Source: Verrucomicrobia bacterium LW23 (GTDB lineage: Bacteria > Verrucomicrobiota > Verrucomicrobiia > Methylacidiphilales > UBA1321). From it: a DNA stretch of 64,000 nucleotides. The DNA is taken from NCBI GenBank assembly GCA_003054695.1, contig QAZA01000011.1, positions 1-64,000 of the forward strand. The letters run 5' to 3'. Position 1 is the stretch's first letter, and each line of letters opens with the position of its first letter. Positions 8,025 through 51,879 of the stretch are shown here, piece after piece. Both the position numbers and the translations under genes were made by a program. The notes below the pieces were generated by a model. That model had not been told where the DNA came from and did no database searches. It worked only from the letters and a program-made list of their open reading frames with translations.

Positions 8025-8357
8025 ATGTACTACGAAGGACTCTATATCCTCAATATTCAGGGCAAAGAAGAAGGCCTGAAGGAAGCGATCGAACTCATCG
8101 AGCGCGAAATCGCCCACCAGGGCGGCACCGTGTTCGGCATCCAGAAGATGGACCGCCGCAAGTTTGAGCGCCAGGCCGACAAGCTGGACTCCGGCTTCTA
8201 CGTCAACGTCCAGTTCGCCCTCGACCCCCACATCCTCCTGACGCTGCAGAACCGCCTCAAGCTCAACGAGGTCGTCTACCGCCAGTTCTACATCGTCAAA
8301 GAATCGGCACCCGCCGAGCCCGCGCCGGTGGAAGAGGCCGCTCCGGCTGCCGCCTAA
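8025..8357 (+). CDS. rpsF: 30S ribosomal protein S6
   Basis: The 110-residue protein matches bS6: MYYEGLYILNIQGKEEG, IELIEREIAHQGGTVFGIQKMDRRKFE, and the NVQFALDP...LNEVVYRQFYIVK segment. It binds S18 and 16S rRNA in the small-subunit platform. The C-terminal tail is rich in Ala, Pro and Glu. It is followed by ssb and rplI, the classic rpsF-ssb-rplI order; rpsR is absent from the block. Confidence 0.94.
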   Translation: MYYEGLYILNIQGKEEGLKEAIELIEREIAHQGGTVFGIQKMDRRKFERQADKLDSGFYVNVQFALDPHILLTLQNRLKLNEVVYRQFYIVKESAPAEPAPVEEAAPAAA

Positions 8358-8522
8358 ACACCGCGCAGCACCACGGCCCCGGCCGGCGCCGACGCCTTGC
8401 ATTGCAGAACTGACCGCATCGCTCATCCCCCGGGCTCGCCGCCCATCTCCCTACGGAGTGACGGCTGCCCCGGGCTATCGCTCGCTTAACACAGCTCCCT
8501 CACACAACTTCTCCCCCCTGCC

Positions 8523-9071
8523 ATGCCCGACCTCAACAAAGTAATGCTGATGGGTAACCTGACGCGTGATCCCGAAGTGCGCTATACGCCCAAGGGTACC
8601 GCCGTCGGCGAACTGGGAATTGCGATCAACTCCAGCTACCGCTCGCAGGACGGCACCAACCGCGAGGAAGTGTGCTACGTGGATATTGAAGTGTGGGATC
8701 GCCAGGCCGAAACCTGCCGCGATTACCTGCGCCGCGGGTCGCCCGTCTTTATCGAAGGGCGCCTGAAGCTGGACCAGTGGGAGACAAAAGAAGGCGAGAA
8801 GAAGAGCCGCCTGCGCGTTCGCGCCGAGCGCGTGCAGTTCCTCAGCAACCGCAGCGGTGGCGGCGGACAGCCCCCCAGCGAAGGCGGTGGTGGCGGCGGC
8901 GGAAGCAGCAGCGGCGGCGGTGGTGGCGGTGGATACTCCCAGCGCGCGCGCGAGGATTACCCCCGCGAAGCCCGTCGCGAAGAGCGCAGCACCGAGCGCC
9001 CTCCGCGCCAGGAGCGCCCCCCGGCCCCGCCCCAGCAGGACGATGCCGACGAAGGCGATATCCCCTTCTAG
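8523..9071 (+). CDS. ssb: Single-stranded DNA-binding protein
   Basis: The 182-residue SSB has an OB-fold at residues 1-110 (LNKVMLMGNLTRDPEVRYT and EEVCYVDIEVWDRQAETC), a long Gly/Ser-rich linker (about residues 112-140), an Arg/Pro-rich stretch, and the acidic DEGDIPF tip that recruits replication and repair partners. It acts in replication, recombination and repair. The position between rpsF and rplI is the usual one. The many GGC/GGT repeats in the linker make this segment prone to slippage. Confidence 0.95.
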   Translation: MPDLNKVMLMGNLTRDPEVRYTPKGTAVGELGIAINSSYRSQDGTNREEVCYVDIEVWDRQAETCRDYLRRGSPVFIEGRLKLDQWETKEGEKKSRLRVRAERVQFLSNRSGGGGQPPSEGGGGGGGSSSGGGGGGGYSQRAREDYPREARREERSTERPPRQERPPAPPQQDDADEGDIPF

Positions 9072-9399
9072 ACACCCCCATTTTAAACATCGAACAACAC
9101 CCACTCTCTATCTGTTAGTGTGGCACCACACTAATAAATGCAGAGTGCGCGGAGTGGAAAGCAGGGCGCTCCCGCCCGGGCCAGACATCCGCAGACGCAA
9201 AGCAAGTAGCAGCAGAAGCATCAGCAGCACGAACGAAGAGCATTACCCCAGGGCGGCCTCACCGGCCCCGCCTGGCCCAGCCCCCTCTCCATACCGCAAC
9301 GCCCGGCCGGCCTCTACCGCCGCATGCCGGCCGCCGCGCGGGGGAGAGGAGCGCAGCGCCGGCCCCGGCACTCGACCGCCCGCATCCCTCCCCACTCCC
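9072..9399 (+). other. Intergenic region between ssb and rplI
   Basis: No gene is seen in these 328 bases. A perfect 9-base-pair palindrome lies at 9115-9134. The rest is GC-rich. An in-frame extension of rplI runs back through this region and into ssb, but its translation is low-complexity and unlike L9. Confidence 0.5.
9115..9134. promoter_or_regulatory. Palindrome between ssb and rplI
   Basis: TTAGTGTGG-CA-CCACACTAA. The arms match perfectly over 9 bases with a 2-base centre, so it suits a dimeric DNA-binding protein better than an RNA hairpin. There is no T-run, so it is not a typical terminator. Confidence 0.35.
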
Positions 9400-29682: not shown

Positions 29683-29756
29683 GCTCCCATAGCTCAATCG
29701 GATAGAGCAGCGGTCTTCTAAACCGCAGGTTACTGGTTCGAACCCAGTTGGGAGCA
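29683..29756 (+). tRNA. tRNA-Arg (anticodon TCT)
   Basis: The 74-base cloverleaf is complete: acceptor GCTCCCA/TGGGAGC with discriminator A, D stem GCTC/GAGC, anticodon stem GCGGT/ACCGC with loop CTTCTAA (TCT at 29717-29719), and T arm ACTGG-TTCGAAC-CCAGT. CCA is not encoded. It reads AGA codons. The integrase gene begins about 150 bases downstream, so its 3' end is the likely prophage attachment site. Confidence 0.96.
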
Positions 29757-29832
29757 CTCCTTCTAACGCGTTGAAAATGAGGCAGTTACACTGAACATAG
29801 CGATTAAAAGGGGCGATGTTTCTGAAACCGCA

Positions 29833-29898
29833 TTTTGGCGAAATTTGGCAAATATTTTCGCATTTTAGTCGATTTTTTGGCAAAATTTGGCGAAACTT
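29833..29898. repeat. Short repeats between tRNA-Arg and integrase, possible integrase arm sites
   Basis: TTTTGGCGAAATTTGGCAAA (29833-29852) and TTTTTTGGCAAAATTTGGCG (29874-29893) are close repeats in an AT-rich block immediately before the integrase start. Each is built from two TTTGGC(G/A)AAA units. Confidence 0.45.
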
Positions 29899-29906
29899 TC
29901 GGGGAG

Positions 29907-31136
29907 ATGAAACCCGCCAGGAAGTCGAATGTCGTCAGGGAAGAGTGGCCCAAAATAGTGAAGATCGTCCTTAATGGCAATCTTCGCTGGCAAGTCGACG
30001 CCAGGCCATCTGGTCGCCGTGAAATCTGCAAGTCTGAGATTGAGGCGATCCGGCGGGCAAATGCGCTTGCCAAGACTAAGCTGGAGCAAGGCACTGCTGC
30101 CGTCACGATGCCTCCTCAGCTCCGAGCGATGGCGATCGAGTGCCATGAAAAGCTCGCCGTATGGGGCAAGACGCTCCGCGATGCCACGGCGTATTACATT
30201 GCCTCGATGGAAGACGCGCGCCTTCGCGAGGAAAGCCATCTCATGCAGTTTTGCCTAAAGGAGTGGCTTACGGTTCGCGAAGAGGAGCACAAGCGCAAAG
30301 ATATTTCGGACGCGACACTCCGCGAGACTAAATCGATGCGGAAAATTTTTGCCAACGCGTTTGGCAATATCAACGTCCGTGCCGTCAACCGGCAGCATGT
30401 CGAGACGTTCCTGGGCAGCGTCGAAAAAGGCCCGCGCACGCGCAACAATTACCGCGTCAAGCTGGGTACGTTCTTCAACTTTGCGCGCAACAAAGGCTGG
30501 ATCGATCACAATCCCGCCGCCGGCATTAAGGTCAGAATTCCCGATGAGGAGGTTGTCGTGCTCTCTGTCGAAGAGGCCCACTCTCTCATAAAGGCTGCAA
30601 GCGACTTTCCCCTTGCCCTGCCCTATCTGGTGATCAGCCTATTTGCCGGCCTTCGCCCCTATGAGGCGCAAGCGCTGGATTGGAGCAACGTGTTCCTCAA
30701 GACGCGCCAAATCCGTGTGCTCGCCGCCACCAGCAAAACGCGCGAGACGCGATACGTCCCTATTAACGACACGCTTCTCGCCTGGCTTACTCCGCTTGCA
30801 AAGGGCAAATCCGGTCCCGTCATTGGCCCTGTGCCCGGCTACTTCCGCAATGCCTGGGAAGGGCTTCGCGCGTCCCTCGGCTACTGTATCGACGGTAAAA
30901 ACGTCGAAGAGCGCAGTGAACAGGGCGAAATCATCAAGGAGCAAGGCCCCGAGTGGCCACCCGATTGTCTGCGCCATACCTTCGCATCGTACTGGTTGCC
31001 GATCCATCACAGCCGCTCGGAGCTTGCCGAGATTATGGGAAACTCGGAATCTGTGATACGCAAGCACTACCGACGAGCCGTGCCCGCGAATGTCGCACAA
31101 TCTTACTGGAAGATCCTACCCAAGAAGCGGCGCTGA
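29907..31136 (+). CDS. int: Tyrosine recombinase (phage integrase)
   Basis: The 409-residue protein has an arm-binding-type basic N-terminus, a core-binding domain (about residues 115-205, ITLRETKSMRKIF-type helices), and the catalytic domain: Arg in AGLRPYEA near 250, LRHTFAS with Arg and His near 356-357, an Asn where the second His often stands (EIMGNSE), and the nucleophile Tyr in RKHYRR near 388. It should integrate and excise the prophage at tRNA-Arg. The ATG at 29907 follows GGGGAG; a TTG-initiated extension to 29835 would run through the AT-rich repeat block. Confidence 0.92.
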   Translation: MKPARKSNVVREEWPKIVKIVLNGNLRWQVDARPSGRREICKSEIEAIRRANALAKTKLEQGTAAVTMPPQLRAMAIECHEKLAVWGKTLRDATAYYIASMEDARLREESHLMQFCLKEWLTVREEEHKRKDISDATLRETKSMRKIFANAFGNINVRAVNRQHVETFLGSVEKGPRTRNNYRVKLGTFFNFARNKGWIDHNPAAGIKVRIPDEEVVVLSVEEAHSLIKAASDFPLALPYLVISLFAGLRPYEAQALDWSNVFLKTRQIRVLAATSKTRETRYVPINDTLLAWLTPLAKGKSGPVIGPVPGYFRNAWEGLRASLGYCIDGKNVEERSEQGEIIKEQGPEWPPDCLRHTFASYWLPIHHSRSELAEIMGNSESVIRKHYRRAVPANVAQSYWKILPKKRR

Positions 31137-38968: not shown

Positions 38969-39143
38969 TGCCTTCCAAGCCCTTCCCCAAAGGACAGAAA
39001 GACGTATTGCGCGGCGTTTCATGGGCTCCAGCCCAGCCGCGCTGATCCGCTAAGCCGCTCAGTCCACGGCGATCCACGCCAGTCCACGATTGTCCATTTT
39101 GTCCACGTTTCCTGTCCACGCACCGCACCTCAACTCCGCAACC

Positions 39144-40052
39144 ATGACGACCACAAGCACTTCCACCGCCGGCACCTTCCACGACGTTCCCCGCCGCTTC
39201 TGGCCCAGCCTCGCCCACCCGCGCATAGCCTGGCCCAGCCGCCCCTTGGCGCTGGTGCACGGCCCGACCGGCACCGGCAAGACGCACGAAGTCTGCAACG
39301 CCGTGTACGCCCGGCTGCGCGCCGCCGGCGGACACGCCCACTACGTCACCCACGCCGGCCTCACCACCGCCGTGCTGCGCGCCATCGACTCCGGCGACGG
39401 CAAAGCGGCCGTCGTCGATAAATACCAGGCCACGCCCGTGCTGGTGCTCGACGAGTTCGCCGCCACCGCCAAAGACATGGCCGATGCCAGCTACAGCACC
39501 GCCCGCGACATCATCTTCCACCGCACCGCCAACCTCCTCCCCACGTTCATCGTCACCAACTGCACGCTCACCTGGCTACGCGAGCACCTCGACCCCGCGT
39601 TCTACGCCCGCCTCACCTGCGACCACCGCGACGAAAGCGAGGAGATCGAAATCGCCACCCCACCCACCGCGCGCGGCTTCGGCCGCCCCTGGCAAGGCGA
39701 CCGCCTGCCCGATCCCGACTGGATGCCCGCCTTGATGACGCTGCTTTCGGACGTCACCTGGAACGTAACGGGCGAGCCTATGTCCATTCCCTTCATGGGT
39801 AAGTCCATGGCGTTCTCCGCTTCATACAGAGCAAAGATGCTTTGCGCAGGCGCTTGGCAATGGCTGGAAGCCACAAAGCCGGCGCAGCTTTCCGTATTGC
39901 AAGAGCTCTACCTGTTGGAAGAATGCGAGTTTAATAAAATATTTATTGACGCGGCGTCTGCAACTACGAAGCGTCGTAGTTCATGCCCATCACTGATGAC
40001 ATCGCAAACTCAAAACACGCAAGCTATCAACACCATCCTGTCGACGATATAG
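39144..40052 (+). CDS. DnaC-like helicase loader ATPase
   Basis: The 302-residue AAA ATPase has a Walker A GPTGTGKT at residues 40-47 and a Walker B VLVLDEF at 99-105. It has the compact domain of phage DnaC/IstB-type loaders: TFIVTNCTLTWLREHLDPAF (sensor-like Asn) and ARLTCDHRDE. It should load the replicative helicase onto the phage origin with the upstream protein. The ATG at 39144 is chosen over a frame extending to 39090 because the extension is Pro/Ser-rich and unlike the family. Confidence 0.8.
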   Translation: MTTTSTSTAGTFHDVPRRFWPSLAHPRIAWPSRPLALVHGPTGTGKTHEVCNAVYARLRAAGGHAHYVTHAGLTTAVLRAIDSGDGKAAVVDKYQATPVLVLDEFAATAKDMADASYSTARDIIFHRTANLLPTFIVTNCTLTWLREHLDPAFYARLTCDHRDESEEIEIATPPTARGFGRPWQGDRLPDPDWMPALMTLLSDVTWNVTGEPMSIPFMGKSMAFSASYRAKMLCAGAWQWLEATKPAQLSVLQELYLLEECEFNKIFIDAASATTKRRSSCPSLMTSQTQNTQAINTILSTI

Positions 40053-40405
40053 AGCCCGAGGAGCGAGCGGAGAAGCCGGAAGAGAACAAGCGCTTTATCC
40101 AGGCGCTATCGCGCTTGCTGCATTACATCAATAGCCAAAGCGATCCGCGCCGCGCTGTTTACGAGATCTACTTTGCTATTGGCAAAGATGTCGCGCTTGG
40201 CCTTACGGAAGTGGATATGGCGAAGCGCTATGGCATTAGCAAACAGGCGTTCAGCCACGGTGTTGTGCAATGCCGCAAGGCGCTGGGATTGCCTTCGCTG
40301 CAGCGTAGCGAGGCGGCGTGCAGGAAGTTCGCGTTGACTCACGAGCGCCAGCATGGCCCTCGCACCTGCCCTGTCGTCGCCGAAACCGTCGCAATCGCAG
40401 CCTAA
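39983..40405 (+). CDS. Sigma-70 region 4-like HTH protein
   Basis: The 140-residue protein carries LGLTEVDMAKRYGISKQAFS then HGVVQCRKALGL, a helix-turn-helix like sigma factor region 4 or phage late activators. It overlaps the DnaC-like gene by 70 bases in another frame. It may regulate late transcription. Confidence 0.6.
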   Translation: MPITDDIANSKHASYQHHPVDDIEPEERAEKPEENKRFIQALSRLLHYINSQSDPRRAVYEIYFAIGKDVALGLTEVDMAKRYGISKQAFSHGVVQCRKALGLPSLQRSEAACRKFALTHERQHGPRTCPVVAETVAIAA

Positions 40406-40412
40406 CGCCCTG

Positions 40413-41042
40413 ATGCTGCCCCACGTTGACGCCAGCATGATCGGCATCGACTTCCCCGAGTCGATTACGGAAGAGCAGTTTCGCGAGGTGGGATCGCTGA
40501 TCGCTGGCGTGCAGCGGTCCCTGCCCTGGTATTGGGGCGACTGGCTCGCCTTCGCCTCGCAGTCCGCCACCCGTGCCGGCCGCAACGCGCGCATGCACAT
40601 CGACGACGGTCCCGCGCTCTACCACCTGGCCGAAGAGCTGTCGCACCTCAGCTACCAGACGCTTCGCAACTACAAATCCGTGTGCGAGGCCATCCCGTTG
40701 TACCGGCGAAAGTACAGCCTAAGCTTCACCCACCACCAGATCGTCGCCAACATCCCCGACCCCGCCGAGCAAGACAACTGGCTCGACGAAGCCGAAAAGA
40801 AAGGCTGGAGCGTGAGCGAACTACGCATGGCCATCCGCCTGGCCTACCGCACCGAAGAGCCCGTCGAAGGCCGCGACGACGGCTCCCGCCGCTCGCAGAT
40901 TCTGAGGGAGATGGAGAGCCTCGCCAGCTTGCTCAAGAAGGAGCGCGTAGAGGATCTGCCGCCGGCCACGCAAGATGTTTGGATGGAGCAGCTTAAGCCG
41001 ATTGTGGCGACGTATGAGATTCTGTGCGAGTTGAGAGAGTAG
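40413..41042 (+). CDS. Hypothetical DNA-binding-like phage protein
   Basis: The 209-residue protein (starting MLPHVDASMIGIDFPESI) contains LPWYWGDWLAFASQSA, LSHLSYQTLRNYKSVCEAIP, and HHQIVANIPDPAEQDNWLDEA followed by GWSVSELRMAI. This pattern occurs in phage and plasmid proteins with ParB/KorB-like helix-turn-helix segments. An in-frame ATG at 40353 would overlap the preceding gene; I prefer 40413. It is the last gene before the AT-rich cargo operon. Confidence 0.55.
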   Translation: MLPHVDASMIGIDFPESITEEQFREVGSLIAGVQRSLPWYWGDWLAFASQSATRAGRNARMHIDDGPALYHLAEELSHLSYQTLRNYKSVCEAIPLYRRKYSLSFTHHQIVANIPDPAEQDNWLDEAEKKGWSVSELRMAIRLAYRTEEPVEGRDDGSRRSQILREMESLASLLKKERVEDLPPATQDVWMEQLKPIVATYEILCELRE

Positions 41043-41127
41043 ACGTAAGATGGGTGGGAAGCATCGTGATACCTGCCGCACAAAATACATATTACCATTA
41101 AAAACTATTTGCTTACCCACATCCTAA

Positions 41128-42129
41128 ATGACAGTATTGGGTATGGCAGAACTTCAAGCAAGAATCGCTGAAATGGCAAACAGGGTGTCGAGTCAGATAT
41201 TTCGGCAATTCGGTTGGGAACGTCGGCCACACAAAGATGCGGATTGGCCGTGCTGTACGAAAGCACACAAGAAGAAAACGCATCCGAGCGACGTTGTGTT
41301 CTACTATGAGTCTCCGTTTCCAAAGGATAGCGGCCGAGTTTACCTCAATACTGACCTCAAAAGTTATGCCAAAGCGACGATCACAAAGGAAGCTGTTGAG
41401 AATGCATTGATTAGTTTGGCCATGGCAACAGAGTGTGCAAATAAGAGTCCGGATTGGCAAAAACTATATCAAGACACTCAATTAAATAGCAAAGTTTATG
41501 GAATGCTATTTATTTACAATCACGATCAAGAATATGACAAAGATTTTAAATCTCTATTGCTATCAATAACTTCATCTTTGATTAAGGTAAAAGCCGGATT
41601 TCGCCTTTTCATATTCGGACCAGAAGAAATACGATATCTACTTAGTATTGCTACAGATATGGCAATTCTTAGGCAAGAAAGCCGATTGCCAGATTTAGAG
41701 TACTGCAGGTTCTACCTTCCAGATTTGGTAAAACTTAGGGTTACACATAAAGAGCTACAGTCAGCCAGCGCGGAAATGTTGAAGATGCCGTGGCAAATTA
41801 TTAAGTATTCTCCACAGGAGGACAAAGTAGATCAACCTGGATACATCGTCTACTATAGAGGTGAATGCTCATCCTCTGATGAGCTCAAATTTCTTTTGGA
41901 CTACTTTTTCCGCTTTCAATTAGTTGGTGATAAGTCAACGATCCTAATCCGCGCACCGTTCGCTGTTAATGAAGCTACGAGTTACTTTGAAACGGCAAAA
42001 GAGCAGTATTGTCAAAAGTACTTTGGTTATAAAGATATCGACTCTCGCCTCAAAAAAATCACGCTTGAAAAAGTTATTTGCCAGCAAGCTAATTTCTCTA
42101 CTACCGAGCTCGGAATGGATCCACGATAA
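41128..42129 (+). CDS. Cargo operon gene A: putative PD-(D/E)XK nuclease
   Basis: The 333-residue protein has a candidate restriction-type nuclease core near its N-terminus: HPSDVVFYYESPFPKDSGRV then YLNTDLKSYAK, giving Asp55 and Asp76-Leu-Lys78, the PD...(D/E)xK layout. Glu31 lies upstream as a possible further ligand. Beyond residue 110 (TECANKSPDWQKLYQDTQLN) the fold is unknown. AT-rich and unlike the flanking phage genes, it is translationally coupled to gene B (TAATG, one base overlap). ATGs at 41128 and 41143 are both possible. The nuclease call is motif-based only. Confidence 0.55.
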   Translation: MTVLGMAELQARIAEMANRVSSQIFRQFGWERRPHKDADWPCCTKAHKKKTHPSDVVFYYESPFPKDSGRVYLNTDLKSYAKATITKEAVENALISLAMATECANKSPDWQKLYQDTQLNSKVYGMLFIYNHDQEYDKDFKSLLLSITSSLIKVKAGFRLFIFGPEEIRYLLSIATDMAILRQESRLPDLEYCRFYLPDLVKLRVTHKELQSASAEMLKMPWQIIKYSPQEDKVDQPGYIVYYRGECSSSDELKFLLDYFFRFQLVGDKSTILIRAPFAVNEATSYFETAKEQYCQKYFGYKDIDSRLKKITLEKVICQQANFSTTELGMDPR

Positions 42130-43244
42130 TGCCACGCTACGAATACCCTGCCGATTTTTACGCAGATGACAAAGATATTTCTGATCTCTTTGCTGCGAGT
42201 GGCTTTACATCAAAGCGGCTACTCAATTTGGCACTCGAGCGAGGTATAGTCCTATCGAGTGAATTAAGCAAGGAATCATTAATTGATTTTCTCTCATTAC
42301 TCCCTTTGTCCTGGAGGGAACTGCAGGGGCTACTAAAGGCGATCGAGTCTCCCGATAAAGGCGAAAAACTCACAACCTGCAAATTTGATACCTCAGTAGA
42401 TTTAGATGAGGTTGAGAAAGCTGTTTTTGATGTGCGAGATTTACGAGGCACACTTGATAATGAAGCGTATATAATTAATAGAAAGGATGGTGGCATATAT
42501 ATTCAAGTTATATATAGCGAAGTTGATCCTACGTCGACTAGAACTATACAACGGCTCCATAAGGAAATGGAGATTCTAATTAATAAGTCCGCCAAAGGCT
42601 TCGAGGTTCGATATCCGCAGAATTCCAGAGGTGAGGCTATTGTTGACAAGATTTTTTCGACGATTCCAGTACCTGAAGGACAAGAAAAGCCCAGGCAAAC
42701 AAGAATTGAACTTTCAGGGGTAATACATCCTGAAAAGCGAACAGAGTTTTTTATAATAATAATAGACAGTCTAAAGGGATTTAAGAGGAGGGATGTGCTA
42801 GATCTTAAGCTTAATAGGATTTCATCTGATAACACTGATAGTGAGGATGAGGATGAGAAGCAAGAAGCTGAAGACAAAATGCGGAATGCTGTAAAGCGAA
42901 TGGCTCTATCTGGTGGAGCACTTTTGTCAACGCCGCAGTTCAAACAAATATCCGATGATGGATTTGCAATATATCGAATAGTTTGGGAGGCTCGCGAAAT
43001 AGATGGCAATGGAAACATTTATGAACTGGAAGCCCTGTTCAAGGATCCAGAAAATGGCATTGGATTTGCTTACCATATCAGGGGAATACGGGAGTTTGAC
43101 GGGGACAAGTACACTGGACTCAAAAAGCAAATATCCTTAGACCAGAAGAATCGACTTCATGATCTCATCGTAGAAGCGGCTTATTCAGCCTTAGATGTCA
43201 TCCATAAGAGTATTACCCTACCAAAAATTGAAGGACCATTATGA
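42129..43244 (+). CDS. Cargo operon gene B: unknown protein
   Basis: I do not recognise this 371-residue protein. Its first 60 residues (LFAASGFTSKRLLNLALERG, SLIDFLSLLPLSWRELQGLL) look helical and could be a SAP/LEM-like nucleic-acid-binding fold, although this is weak. The middle (KFDTSVDLDEVEKAVFDVRD) and a highly acidic segment (SSDNTDSEDEDEKQEAEDK, near 235-255) separate it from a C-terminal beta-rich region (GFAIYRIVWEAREIDGNGNI). It overlaps gene A by one base and gene C by four (ATGA), so the three are probably made together. Confidence 0.6.
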   Translation: MPRYEYPADFYADDKDISDLFAASGFTSKRLLNLALERGIVLSSELSKESLIDFLSLLPLSWRELQGLLKAIESPDKGEKLTTCKFDTSVDLDEVEKAVFDVRDLRGTLDNEAYIINRKDGGIYIQVIYSEVDPTSTRTIQRLHKEMEILINKSAKGFEVRYPQNSRGEAIVDKIFSTIPVPEGQEKPRQTRIELSGVIHPEKRTEFFIIIIDSLKGFKRRDVLDLKLNRISSDNTDSEDEDEKQEAEDKMRNAVKRMALSGGALLSTPQFKQISDDGFAIYRIVWEAREIDGNGNIYELEALFKDPENGIGFAYHIRGIREFDGDKYTGLKKQISLDQKNRLHDLIVEAAYSALDVIHKSITLPKIEGPL

Positions 43245-43927
43245 GTTCGCGTATTCGATGGTTAAACGTGAAGTGTAACGTGCAGAAGCCTCTCGAACGA
43301 ATAACGGAAGGTATGTACGATGACGAATATACGCTTGGGGCAAGCTCTGGATTCATAACTAAAAGGGTAACCAGTTCATTCGTTCAGGGGCAATATGTTG
43401 AGCGCTTTCAACGCAAAATTCAGTTGATTGATCCGTTGGGAACTGAGTATAGTACTGATACTATTGAGTATATAATTACGGATTTCAAATTTTTTGTAGA
43501 TTCGCCGGAGATTGAGATTCTTAATGCTCCTAGGTCTATCGCTCCGGCAATAAATCAAATAGCAAATATTCTTGGCCTTGGAAGTGTCATTACGCCAGTG
43601 TCTGTATCTCCTTCAAGCTGGCTTGAGTACGCCGAAGGCCTTAACAATATCTGCGTGAAAAATGCTCAATTCTCGAGGATAAGCCTAGCTGAGAATGTAA
43701 GCGCAAAAGTGCAAATAACAGGTACTGTTGATGTAAGAAGTTTTTTTGAATTGTTAGCTGGCTCCAAATCGAGCTTCATTGACAAACTCGACGTTATTGG
43801 AGATCTTCATGGGGAGCGAATTAGATTTTCATTGAGGGAAGACGGGAAAGCGATATTAAATAATCATGATGACAACGTATGTTTAATGCTACGCGATGCA
43901 CTTTCTAACTTGATTAGTAGCAAATAG
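43241..43927 (+). CDS. Cargo operon gene C: unknown protein
   Basis: The 228-residue protein starts in an ATGA overlap with gene B. It has beta-rich N-terminal sequence (RIRWLNVKCNVQKPLERITE, FVQGQYVERFQRKIQLID) and mixed C-terminal sequence (AENVSAKVQITGTVDVRSFF). No catalytic motif or membrane span is visible. Very AT-rich: 43441-43500 has 15 G+C of 60. Its tight coupling suggests it forms a complex with B. Confidence 0.6.
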   Translation: MSSRIRWLNVKCNVQKPLERITEGMYDDEYTLGASSGFITKRVTSSFVQGQYVERFQRKIQLIDPLGTEYSTDTIEYIITDFKFFVDSPEIEILNAPRSIAPAINQIANILGLGSVITPVSVSPSSWLEYAEGLNNICVKNAQFSRISLAENVSAKVQITGTVDVRSFFELLAGSKSSFIDKLDVIGDLHGERIRFSLREDGKAILNNHDDNVCLMLRDALSNLISSK

Positions 43928-43933
43928 AATTCT

Positions 43934-44656
43934 ATGGAATTACATGATATCTTGAACCGTCGATCAGACCTTAGCACCTTTTTAGTTCATCTTACTCGCG
44001 CTAACGGCGAAATGTCAGCACAGGATAATCTTACGAAAATAATTGAATCTAGATTTATTGAAGCTCGCAACGTATATGGACACCTTAAATCTAGAGCGGC
44101 AAGCAACCCAGAGGCAGTAACAAATCAAAAAGTCGTTTGTTTTACAGAGACTCCGTTGGAGTACGCTCATTTACTTTCTGAGAATATTGAGAATAGAACG
44201 TTTCATTTTGAACCCTATGGGATTGTAATTACAAAGAAGATAGCCAGGCGAAGAGGTGTCAATCCTGTTTGGTATTTAGACATGACTATCGGTCACGATT
44301 GGTTAACTAAAAATTTCGATACGCTTGCGGCTAAATTCATAACAAACCCCACGGAATTTCGTGCGCTAGAGAAGGTTTTTCCCTACATCGAGCACATGGG
44401 CGATACTACGAGTTGTGGCGGAACTAGAAAGGAGTTTTGGTGGGAACGAGAATGGAGGCATATAGGAAACTTTGAACTTCCCGGAAAGATAATTTGCCTT
44501 TGTCCAGAGGCTGATATCCCACATTTTTCTAAGCTACTAAAAAGTCAATGTATGGAAAAATCCCCTTTAGATGGCTTTTGCATTGATCCTAAATGGAGTA
44601 TGGAGAGAGTTATTGCTAAGCTAGCCAATTTTCCAGACTCTGATGTCATTATATAG
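43934..44656 (+). CDS. Cargo operon gene D: AbiGi-family protein
   Basis: The 240-residue protein matches the AbiGi family of abortive phage-resistance proteins: DILNRRSDLSTFLVHLTRAN, IIESRFIEARNVYGHLKSRA, VVCFTETPLEYAHLL, FEPYGIVITKKIARRRGVNP followed by VWYLD, and EFWWEREWRH. AbiGi is described as the antitoxin partner of AbiGii, but I see no AbiGii-like nucleotidyltransferase here. The 'HLTR...L..II' opening also recalls DarT-like ADP-ribosyltransferases; this is speculative. It starts 6 bases after gene C. Confidence 0.75.
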   Translation: MELHDILNRRSDLSTFLVHLTRANGEMSAQDNLTKIIESRFIEARNVYGHLKSRAASNPEAVTNQKVVCFTETPLEYAHLLSENIENRTFHFEPYGIVITKKIARRRGVNPVWYLDMTIGHDWLTKNFDTLAAKFITNPTEFRALEKVFPYIEHMGDTTSCGGTRKEFWWEREWRHIGNFELPGKIICLCPEADIPHFSKLLKSQCMEKSPLDGFCIDPKWSMERVIAKLANFPDSDVII

Positions 44657-44889
44657 TGTGCCACAGCATTTCCTGACCTACAGTCTTTTCGAGGCCTATT
44701 AAGGAATCTTTTCCATTTCTCCTCTGGTGCTAGGGTAAAGCGACCCTCCTCGTTTTCGCGTGAGAGGTGTATTTTTTCCATTTCCCACTTTTTTAGGGGC
44801 GGTTTGCGGCGGTTTTGTCTCTGAAAGTGGCGCTTTGCAGGGTAGGAAGTGGGGTGGGAAATTTCCCATTGACTTCCTGCCTGGCGCAT

Positions 44890-48428: not shown

Positions 48429-49928
48429 TTAGGAAATAGTTGAGCCACGAACAGAATTCAAGCGTATGGTAGCTTGTACGATGGCGCTTTCATTAAAACC
48501 TAGCTGTTCAAGTATTAGGGCAAATAGGGCCTCTCTCCAATGTGCAATCGCATTGTACAATCTTGCTCCTGTAAGACGATCTGTCGAGAGCTGATGGGTT
48601 ATGGCATTGCGAGTATCGACGGTTTCTCCAATGAAGGCACTAGCGCGTGCGGTTGAGAATCGAGAGAAAACTTGGTGATTGGGTAGTAGTATAGCTAAAT
48701 CGGTTAGTCGTCTGCGTAGTGAATATTCGTTAGCGTATCTTAAAGTGTTGCGAAGCTTTTGCCTGAGAGGGTCTGGTAAAGTTTGTGGAATTGCGTTTGT
48801 AAGCCTTGGATATGTTTCGCTATCATAATGATCTTGTTCTATGTAGATTCCGTCATGAAATGTTCGGTGGTAAGATTCAAGAGCCTGCATAAGGGTTATA
48901 AAAGAGTTGTCTAAATAACTATTTTCTTGAGATTGTAAATACAAGTTTACAATAGGTTCGAGCGAGCTTTGTAATTCAAACCATCGTTCCACAATGTTTT
49001 GAAAAGTAGTTGATATTGATGAATATTGAACCGGATTAGTAGTGGGATCATAAGATAACCTTGACTGAAGTATATATTTTCGACTCCAGTATTCTACAGA
49101 GGGATCAAAAGGAGAGACTCCCTCTACCAGCTCGTGAAAATTGCACGTATCTATACTAATATAGCACTCTCCAAGGAAATTAACTAACGTCCTAAATGTG
49201 TACTCAACGGATTCAAATTCTTCAAGCGATTTTAGATCAGTATGCTTTATAGATATGCCATCAAGGTGAGAGAATGCAATCATTGGATTGCTCGTAGTTT
49301 GCTTTACAGTAGCAGAATGGCGGCTCGCAATTACGAATCCATTAGTCAGATTCGATACCCACTCAGGATTTACGCGATGGACTATATTATAGGCATTCTC
49401 GCTGTTAGAAGGTATGTAAACCCTAGTCATATGGTATGTCCATGCATGTAAATTAGAATACACAACTTCCATTCTACGGAATTGGATATCGTTTTCAGAA
49501 GTAAATCGTCTCCCCCTAAAAACTCGCTCAATATTTAGGTCGACCGTCTTGCTGAAGACATGCTGCAGTGGGCGATTAGTCTGGCCGACGCAAATGGAAT
49601 GACAGCAAGTGTACGATTCTCCTGAGATAGCATTTCCTACAATTAGATTGGGACCTCGTATACTATCAATTCTAATATTGTTCGCAAGGGGGCCCCATAG
49701 CGACGATATTGTGATCTCTGAATCACTTATTTCCAGTGCTCCATGGGACGCACTTTGGTTGTTTGATTCTACTTGTATTGCAGACTCTGCTACTCCATTA
49801 GTAGCTGAAAAAGCAGCAACAAGCTCTTCTTCCGGGGATAATGCAGATAGTTCAGAGCTTCCAAGCAACGGTATTTGGCCTGCGGCTCCTGGATCCCACC
49901 ACACGCCTTGAACTTGAGTACTTTTCAT
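48429..49928 (-). CDS. ApeA-like HEPN-domain antiphage protein
   Basis: The 499-residue protein, on the opposite strand to all surrounding late genes, resembles ApeA: an N-terminal beta-rich domain (VQGVWWDPGAAGQIPLL, IRIDSIRGPNLIVGNAISGE, then FRGRRFTSENDIQFRRMEVV and YSNLHAWT), and a C-terminal HEPN domain with ITLMQALESYHRTF and the RNase motif VDTRNAITHQL (Arg440-x4-His445). ApeA proteins restrict phages, probably by cleaving RNA in infected cells. The gene is AT-rich (48901-48960 has 16 G+C of 60) and sits between terminase and head-joining genes. Likely phage-borne defence cargo. Confidence 0.75.
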   Translation of the reverse strand: MKSTQVQGVWWDPGAAGQIPLLGSSELSALSPEEELVAAFSATNGVAESAIQVESNNQSASHGALEISDSEITISSLWGPLANNIRIDSIRGPNLIVGNAISGESYTCCHSICVGQTNRPLQHVFSKTVDLNIERVFRGRRFTSENDIQFRRMEVVYSNLHAWTYHMTRVYIPSNSENAYNIVHRVNPEWVSNLTNGFVIASRHSATVKQTTSNPMIAFSHLDGISIKHTDLKSLEEFESVEYTFRTLVNFLGECYISIDTCNFHELVEGVSPFDPSVEYWSRKYILQSRLSYDPTTNPVQYSSISTTFQNIVERWFELQSSLEPIVNLYLQSQENSYLDNSFITLMQALESYHRTFHDGIYIEQDHYDSETYPRLTNAIPQTLPDPLRQKLRNTLRYANEYSLRRRLTDLAILLPNHQVFSRFSTARASAFIGETVDTRNAITHQLSTDRLTGARLYNAIAHWREALFALILEQLGFNESAIVQATIRLNSVRGSTIS

Positions 49929-50388: not shown

Positions 50389-51879
50389 ATGACCTGGAAG
50401 CAAGCAATGCACTCGTGGTTTCCGACGTTTACGCCGCGTGCGTGGGGGTGGGGCTCGGCGTATGAGAGTGCGAACCACTCGGCGCGAAGGGGGCAGGTGC
50501 CGGGAGCGGGGCCGGGGGATGCTCGGCGGGATTTGACGCCGGGGGTGCGGTCGGAGCTGGTGCGGCGGTCGCGCTACCTCATGAAGAACTCCGGGTTTGC
50601 GCGGGAGCTGGTGGGGAGCATGGCGATTTATTCGGTGGGCGACGGGTTGCGCGTGCAGGCGCAGTCGGCGGACGCGGGGTGGAACGCGCGGGCGGCGCGG
50701 TATTTCAAGCGGTGGTCGGCGCGGTGCGAGGTGACGCGGCGCTTCTCCTTCGAGGAGTGCCAGGCGTTGATTTGCCGGGGCATCGATACGGACGGCGAGT
50801 ATTTTGTGCACAAGACGCGCGACGCGGCCGGCCTGCCGTCGCTGCAACTGCTTGAGGCGCACCGGATTGGCGGTAGCGGCTCGGTGCTGGGCGCGGCCGG
50901 AGTTGATGACGGCACCGTGGACGGCATCGGCTTTGATGAGCACGGCGCGCCGGCATTTTACCGCGTGGTGGAGGACGACGGGACGACGCGCGACTTGCCG
51001 GCGGAGAGCGTGATTCACGTGTTTGAGCCGGAGAGCGCCAGCGCGGTGCGCAACGCACCGTCGCTTCAGCACAGCATCAATCACATCCTCGACGAGATGG
51101 AACTGCTTGCGCTGGAGAAACATGCGGTGAAGGATCACGCCGACAAGAGCTTCCTGCTCAAGACGCATCGCGAACTGCTGAAGGAAGACGGCGACTTTTC
51201 CGTGCCGCAGGCGGGTGGCGCCGGCGAGCCGGGCGTGCCGAGCGATCCCTCTGCGCTGCAACGCATTACGGGCGGCAAATGGATCTCGCTGCAACCGGAG
51301 GAGGACGCCACGCCGTTCGTCTCCGCGCGCCCGTCGCCCACCTTCACCGGCTTCCTGCGCCACATTCGCCAGGACGGCAGCATGGGCGTGCTGCCCTACG
51401 AGTTTGCGGCCGACACGCGCGAGATCACCGGCGCGGGCATCCGGCTTGTGGTGGCGAAGGCGGATCGGCGATTCTCGTTCCGGCAAATGATTCTGATTCA
51501 ACGGCTTATCAAGCAAGTGTGGGCGTATGTCATCGGCGACGCGATCGACGCCGGCGAGCTGGAGCCGGTGGAAGGCTGGCACCGCATCGCCTGCGTTTGC
51601 CCGCGCCGCGTGACCGTGGACGCCGGCCGCGAAGCCCAGCAAAACCGCGCCGACGTGGAAGTGGGGCTGAAGCCGATCTCCGACCACTACGAGGAGAACG
51701 GCGCCGACTTTGGCGAGGAGCTGGAGCGGCGCGGCGCCGACGCGCGCCTTATCCTCGACACGGCCGAGAAGTACCGTGTGCCCGTGGATATGCTCTGGCG
51801 TCCCTCGGGAGGAGGTGTCGACCTGGCGGCGATTGCCGAGGCGGCGGCGGGCGGCGCGGCCGGCAGCGGGGAGAGATGA
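50389..51879 (+). CDS. Phage portal protein (lambda gpB type)
   Basis: The 496-residue protein has portal landmarks: RSRYLMKNSGFARELVGSMA, DTDGEYFVHKTRDAAGLP, LLEAHRIGG, PAESVIHVFEPESASAVRNA, and a C-terminal low-complexity tail. It forms the dodecameric channel for DNA entry. The ATG at 50389 is used; a longer frame to 50320 adds unrelated residues. Confidence 0.85.
   Translation: MTWKQAMHSWFPTFTPRAWGWGSAYESANHSARRGQVPGAGPGDARRDLTPGVRSELVRRSRYLMKNSGFARELVGSMAIYSVGDGLRVQAQSADAGWNARAARYFKRWSARCEVTRRFSFEECQALICRGIDTDGEYFVHKTRDAAGLPSLQLLEAHRIGGSGSVLGAAGVDDGTVDGIGFDEHGAPAFYRVVEDDGTTRDLPAESVIHVFEPESASAVRNAPSLQHSINHILDEMELLALEKHAVKDHADKSFLLKTHRELLKEDGDFSVPQAGGAGEPGVPSDPSALQRITGGKWISLQPEEDATPFVSARPSPTFTGFLRHIRQDGSMGVLPYEFAADTREITGAGIRLVVAKADRRFSFRQMILIQRLIKQVWAYVIGDAIDAGELEPVEGWHRIACVCPRRVTVDAGREAQQNRADVEVGLKPISDHYEENGADFGEELERRGADARLILDTAEKYRVPVDMLWRPSGGGVDLAAIAEAAAGGAAGSGER

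Follow-up and report, generated by a model that had tools for sequence, protein, structure and literature searches.

Three contiguous genes in a prophage of Verrucomicrobia bacterium LW23, here called A, B and C, are, by their profile matches, a new and divergent member of Rst_3HP, a three-gene system that already has a name. We consider it probable that A-B-C is exchangeable cargo of a temperate phage in which the products of B and C form a clamp directing the nuclease A, and that gene D, which lies behind the trio, is a separate cargo gene of the AbiGi family. The window analysed is a stretch of 64,000 nucleotides, and coordinates refer to it unless another sequence is named (Table 1).

Table 1. 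Positions of the cargo genes and of the prophage features around them
Feature	Coordinates	Strand	Remarks
tRNA-Arg, left attachment site of the prophage	29683-29757	+	28-nt exact copy elsewhere; integrase adjacent
Integrase beside tRNA-Arg	29835-31136
ATPase, replication side, left of the block	39090-40052
Second replication-side gene, left of the block	40353-41042
Swapped cargo block	41035-44699	.	bounds from comparison with sibling L196
Gene A	41128-42129	+	333 aa; ORF list
Gene B	42129-43244	+	371 aa; ORF list
Gene C	43241-43927	+	228 aa; ORF list
Gene D	43934-44656	+	240 aa; ORF list
ApeA-type HEPN gene, second AT-rich cargo	48429-49928	-	TerL-portal site; GC 0.415

An exchangeable cargo block in a temperate phage

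Genes A to D are tightly packed: A and B overlap by 1 nt, B and C overlap by 4 nt (ATGA), and C and D are 6 nt apart, exactly as the original prediction had described. The true start of gene A is probably 41143 because its homologues begin at Met6 of the annotated reading frame. All four genes are AT-rich (GC 0.40-0.41, GC3 0.36-0.40) compared to the flanking phage genes (GC 0.63-0.66, GC3 0.76-0.86). The two 60-mers that had been quoted for this contrast were counted correctly, with 15 G+C at 43441-43500 and 45 at 50521-50580, and the block does lie between replication and packaging genes, with the ATPase side on its left and ParB-like, TerS and TerL genes on its right. Promoter and terminator signals within the block do not exceed chance, no RNA gene was found there, and a DNA-level search of the block against phages gave no match. 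The conserved phage gene that borders the cargo site on its left (40353-41042) is weakly similar to the DUF1016_N and PADLOC PDC-S02 models.

The prophage is bounded on its left by a tRNA-Arg gene. A 28-nt exact copy of the 3' part of this tRNA gene is found at window coordinate 68371, past the window end, and represents the other prophage end. The same provirus is recorded in IMG/VR as IMGVR_UViG_2786546517_000003.

The bounds of the block follow from its closest sibling prophage, which resides in the same genome (G000:C56, L196/L181). On the left flank, the two prophages are 94% identical in nucleotides up to 41034, eight bases before the end of the gene at 40353-41042, and homology restarts at 44700, 44 nt past D. 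At this site, the sibling carries AbiLi (PADLOC, 8e-75) and AbiLii (1e-16) in place of A-B-C-D; in Pfam, these AbiL genes match AAA_21 and RloB. The TerL-portal site is occupied here by the ApeA-type HEPN gene (Pfam HEPN_Apea 9e-20, ApeA_NTD1 4e-12; PADLOC PDC-S58 / Cas13-ApeA) and in the sibling by a gene for a Schlafen-AlbA_2 protein (L196, 10156-11052; Pfam 5e-14), for which PADLOC has no model and which is a candidate defence cargo. Across two sites of phages that are nearly identical elsewhere, four distinct cargoes are thus found, of which at least three are related to defence. This is direct evidence that cargo is exchanged at such hotspots of defence genes. Contigs C11, C56, C17, C15 and C22 of this genome contain four full or near-full TerL copies and one cut-off copy from the same phage family, and the TerL copies of the family within the genome share 65-100% identity.

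Genes A, B and C belong to Rst_3HP

The PADLOC models of all three Rst_3HP proteins match the trio: gene A corresponds to Hp1 (PDLC03004, E 3e-65, residues 10-331), gene B to Hp2 (PDLC03005, E 2e-45, residues 10-359) and gene C to Hp3 (PDLC03006, E 9e-22, residues 4-183 of 228). Hp1, Hp2 and Hp3 are contiguous and co-directional here, as an assignment to Rst_3HP requires, and a Vibrio phage record with homologues carries the annotation Rst_3HP Hp1, Hp2, Hp3. The E. coli Rst_3HP, a three-gene system, protects against P1 (Rousset et al. 2022, PMC9122126), and the DefenseFinder authors list Rst_3HP among mostly prophage-borne systems (PMC9090908). The original prediction of an undescribed system had proposed a PADLOC search as its own refutation test; this search, together with the annotated phage record, instead gives A-B-C an existing name. 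The accompanying proposal of a defence cargo on a prophage is borne out.

The trio shares with known Rst_3HP the presence, order and orientation of Hp1, Hp2 and Hp3 as well as the prophage-borne location. The 3HP homologues of a Klebsiella P2-like phage have portal genes on one side and replication genes on the other and so occupy the described P2 hotspot, whereas the trio studied here belongs to a non-P2 temperate phage, in which replication and terminase genes flank it. Furthermore, an AbiGi-family gene stands behind the trio here, and A is only ~30-44% identical to its homologues, with still lower identity for B and C. Genes A, B and C have no match in Pfam.

To assess conservation, Hp1 loci were sampled from genomes (80) and viral contigs (80), plus plasmids and phages. 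A-B-C is contiguous with order and orientation kept in 165 of the 165 loci that are uncut by a contig end; seven further Hp1 loci end at contig ends and are counted separately. Across the 165 loci, the A-B gap never exceeds 12 nt, and L147 is the only locus in which more than 27 nt separate B and C. There, 1.3 kb (8060-9381), possibly an inserted element, lies between Hp2 and Hp3, and Hp2 is shortened. Of the conserved A-B-C-D neighbourhood that had been proposed as a check, the co-occurrence of A, B and C holds (165/165 loci) and that of D does not (0/161 others).

Gene D is a separate passenger

Apart from this prophage and the database copies of it, no sampled locus has gene D beside 3HP, and no recurring fourth gene of any kind follows Hp3 at the 161 other 3HP loci. 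The earlier placement of D in the AbiGi family holds by a narrow margin: for Pfam PF10899 (AbiGi), its score of 22.5 bits just exceeds the cut-off of 22.4, a marginal match, and PADLOC AbiGi gives E 3.4e-5. D therefore resembles AbiG in reaching the AbiGi family threshold and differs from it in being an orphan: phage genes and no AbiGii partner follow D, and A, B and C have no AbiGii match. Plasmids of Streptomyces, Rhodococcus and Rhizobium as well as four other prophages (L095-L098) carry relatives of D, with no 3HP genes alongside. On Rhizobium plasmid L008 (3962-5858), a D relative immediately precedes the gene of a Shedu immune nuclease. Because D is absent from other 3HP loci, its relatives stand alone and AbiGii is lacking, we conclude from these comparisons that gene D is an orphan AbiGi-family passenger, separate from 3HP. 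As a candidate idea, D might be an ADP-ribosyltransferase-like protein.

Gene A is a predicted nuclease related to GapS4a

Residues E8, H52-P53-x-D55 and D76-L-K78 of gene A do not vary among the diverse homologues compared (67 of 67), a signature fitting a PD-(D/E)XK nuclease, as which A is predicted here. The PD-(D/E)XK-like pattern had been noticed before through D55, D76 and K78; all three residues pass this comparison, and E8 joins them. Sequence searches of solved structures with A, B, C and D returned nothing credible, with no PDB sequence match for gene A.

Genes A and B are also connected to GAPS4, whose GapS4a and GapS4b families are represented by NCBIfam NF047933/NF047934. Gene A matches GapS4a with E 1.4e-10 over residues 6-147, yet its 40.9 bits are far under the cut-off of 270, and the GapS4b score of 15.3 bits is likewise below the membership threshold (cut-off 300). 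Profile-profile comparison pairs A with GapS4a (E 2.8e-16) and B with GapS4b (E 2.5e-16) near full length, while all other 3HP/GAPS4 profile pairs remain at noise level. On these alignments, A is remotely homologous to GapS4a and B to GapS4b over the full length, and the nuclease-first gene order is common to GAPS4 and 3HP. Hp3, which is present here, is missing at five GAPS4 loci. Thus, 3HP and GAPS4 have a two-gene core in common, and Hp3 sets them apart.

Predicted folds of B and C

The AlphaFold2 model of gene C, built with 84 homologues, reaches a pLDDT of 96.6. Its best PDB match in Foldseek is RdgC (2owy, E 2.3e-6, probability 1.00), followed by CENP-L/Iml3 (E 3e-5 to 2e-4). For gene B (pLDDT 90.9), CENP-N/Chl4 structures are the only PDB matches under E 0.001 (Foldseek E 3e-5, probability 1.00), and phage RdgC proteins lead its viral matches (E 1.3e-6). 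The models thereby predict an RdgC/CENP-N-like fold for B and an RdgC/CENP-L (Iml3)-like fold for C. The TM-scores of these matches are moderate (0.2-0.5) and the rmsd is large, so that the similarity may be limited to individual domains. At the sequence level, hhalign of B and C against RdgC gave noise (probability 0.4-0.5 percent), and no homology between B and C is detectable.

One DNA-binding fold is shared by RdgC, by Iml3-Chl4 and by RexA, a phage-exclusion protein (PMC11077077; also PMC4080450). Iml3-Chl4 is a heterodimer that touches centromeric DNA, and RdgC is thought to form a ring-shaped dimer with DNA bound in its pore (PMC11077077; also PMC4080450). RexA of phage lambda, with the same fold, affects the lambda switch (PMC11077077). 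While the folds predicted for B and C resemble those of RdgC, CENP-N and CENP-L, their sequences have no similarity to RdgC. Moreover, B and C are tied to a nuclease and are two distinct subunits, in contrast to the RdgC and RexA homodimers.

A proposed clamp that directs a nuclease

Based on the predicted folds, we infer that B and C make up a clamp that embraces DNA, senses vulnerable phage DNA and directs A. B and C would pair as Chl4/CENP-N does with Iml3/CENP-L and yield a ring- or horseshoe-shaped clamp. This pairing is proposed mainly because B and C match the two partners of one known heterodimer. The clamp would embrace double-stranded DNA without sequence specificity and sense a state that is typical of incoming or replicating phage DNA, namely free ends or recombination intermediates. 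It would then recruit or activate A, which would cut that phage DNA. Self-DNA would be spared in this scheme, as the closed, intact chromosome does not show that state. Within the papers searched, which include few subscription articles and none of the GAPS4 literature sought, we found no mechanism for 3HP, no earlier account of this structural reading of Hp2 and Hp3, and no paper tying CENP-N-like folds to defence.

GAPS4 is without Hp3, and therefore a clamp in the Hp2-Hp3 form cannot be universal. Tentatively, and with somewhat less confidence than doubt, we suggest that 3HP and GAPS4 might constitute one superfamily in which an RdgC-type clamp steers a PD-(D/E)XK nuclease, with Hp2-Hp3 being built like the CENP-N/CENP-L (Chl4/Iml3) heterodimer. 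Phage-borne defence proteins would in that case include a counterpart of the kinetochore pair and perhaps its source.

Alternative explanations

The original prediction treated A-B-C-D as one new four-gene defence system with D as an essential Abi partner. The short distance of 6 nt between C and D, the equally AT-rich composition of D, its location inside the same swapped block and its AbiGi family membership all agree with such a system. However, 161 of 161 other A-B-C loci are without D and show no conserved fourth gene, the relatives of D on plasmids and in prophages stand alone, and A-B-C alone is already a validated system (PMC9122126), so that we regard a four-gene system as highly improbable. 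Hotspot cassettes often stack systems (PMC9122126). This would be in line with two independent modules in one cassette, 3HP and a stand-alone AbiGi-type D with its own activity, an arrangement that we consider likely and that is also suggested by the D relatives, which are single cargo genes (prophages L095-L098, plasmids), one of them beside a Shedu gene. On the other hand, we know of no activity for AbiGi alone, and classical AbiG requires AbiGii, which is absent here. Two independent modules are compatible with our preferred explanation of a B-C clamp, nuclease A and a separate D; the sole difference is the function given to D.

Other alternatives concern the trio itself. 3HP might be abortive, with A being released by B/C and degrading host DNA or RNA so that the infected cell dies. 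PD-(D/E)XK enzymes are used in both direct and suicidal defence, and binding by B/C could equally hold A inhibited; however, folds resembling RdgC, as predicted for B and C, point to engagement and targeting of DNA, and a toxin-antitoxin arrangement is not evident. We consider an abortive mode rather unlikely. B and C could also control RecA or phage recombination like RdgC, or tune the lysogeny switch like RexA, with A as an accessory. The fold match of B and C to RdgC speaks for this, as does the action of RexA, which has the same fold, on the lambda switch (PMC11077077). Yet the trio also occurs on plasmids without a prophage, the active site of A is invariant, and the place where AbiL genes replace the cassette in the sibling is a cargo site and not an immunity region, which renders such a role improbable. 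A clamp that directs the nuclease to phage DNA remains our preferred explanation for A-B-C.

Implications for phage-borne defence

The claim of an undescribed four-gene defence system falls, and what is gained is a testable mechanism for 3HP, in which a GapS4a-related nuclease would work with an RdgC/CENP-N-L-like pair. The comparison of the sibling prophages offers a clean natural experiment in cargo exchange, and the TerL copies in one genome form a natural series for the exchange of cargo and modules. If the proposed mechanism is true, 3HP would be linked to GAPS4 and to RexA-type exclusion, and the B-C pair would be a prokaryotic counterpart of the inner-kinetochore module whose two subunits embrace DNA.
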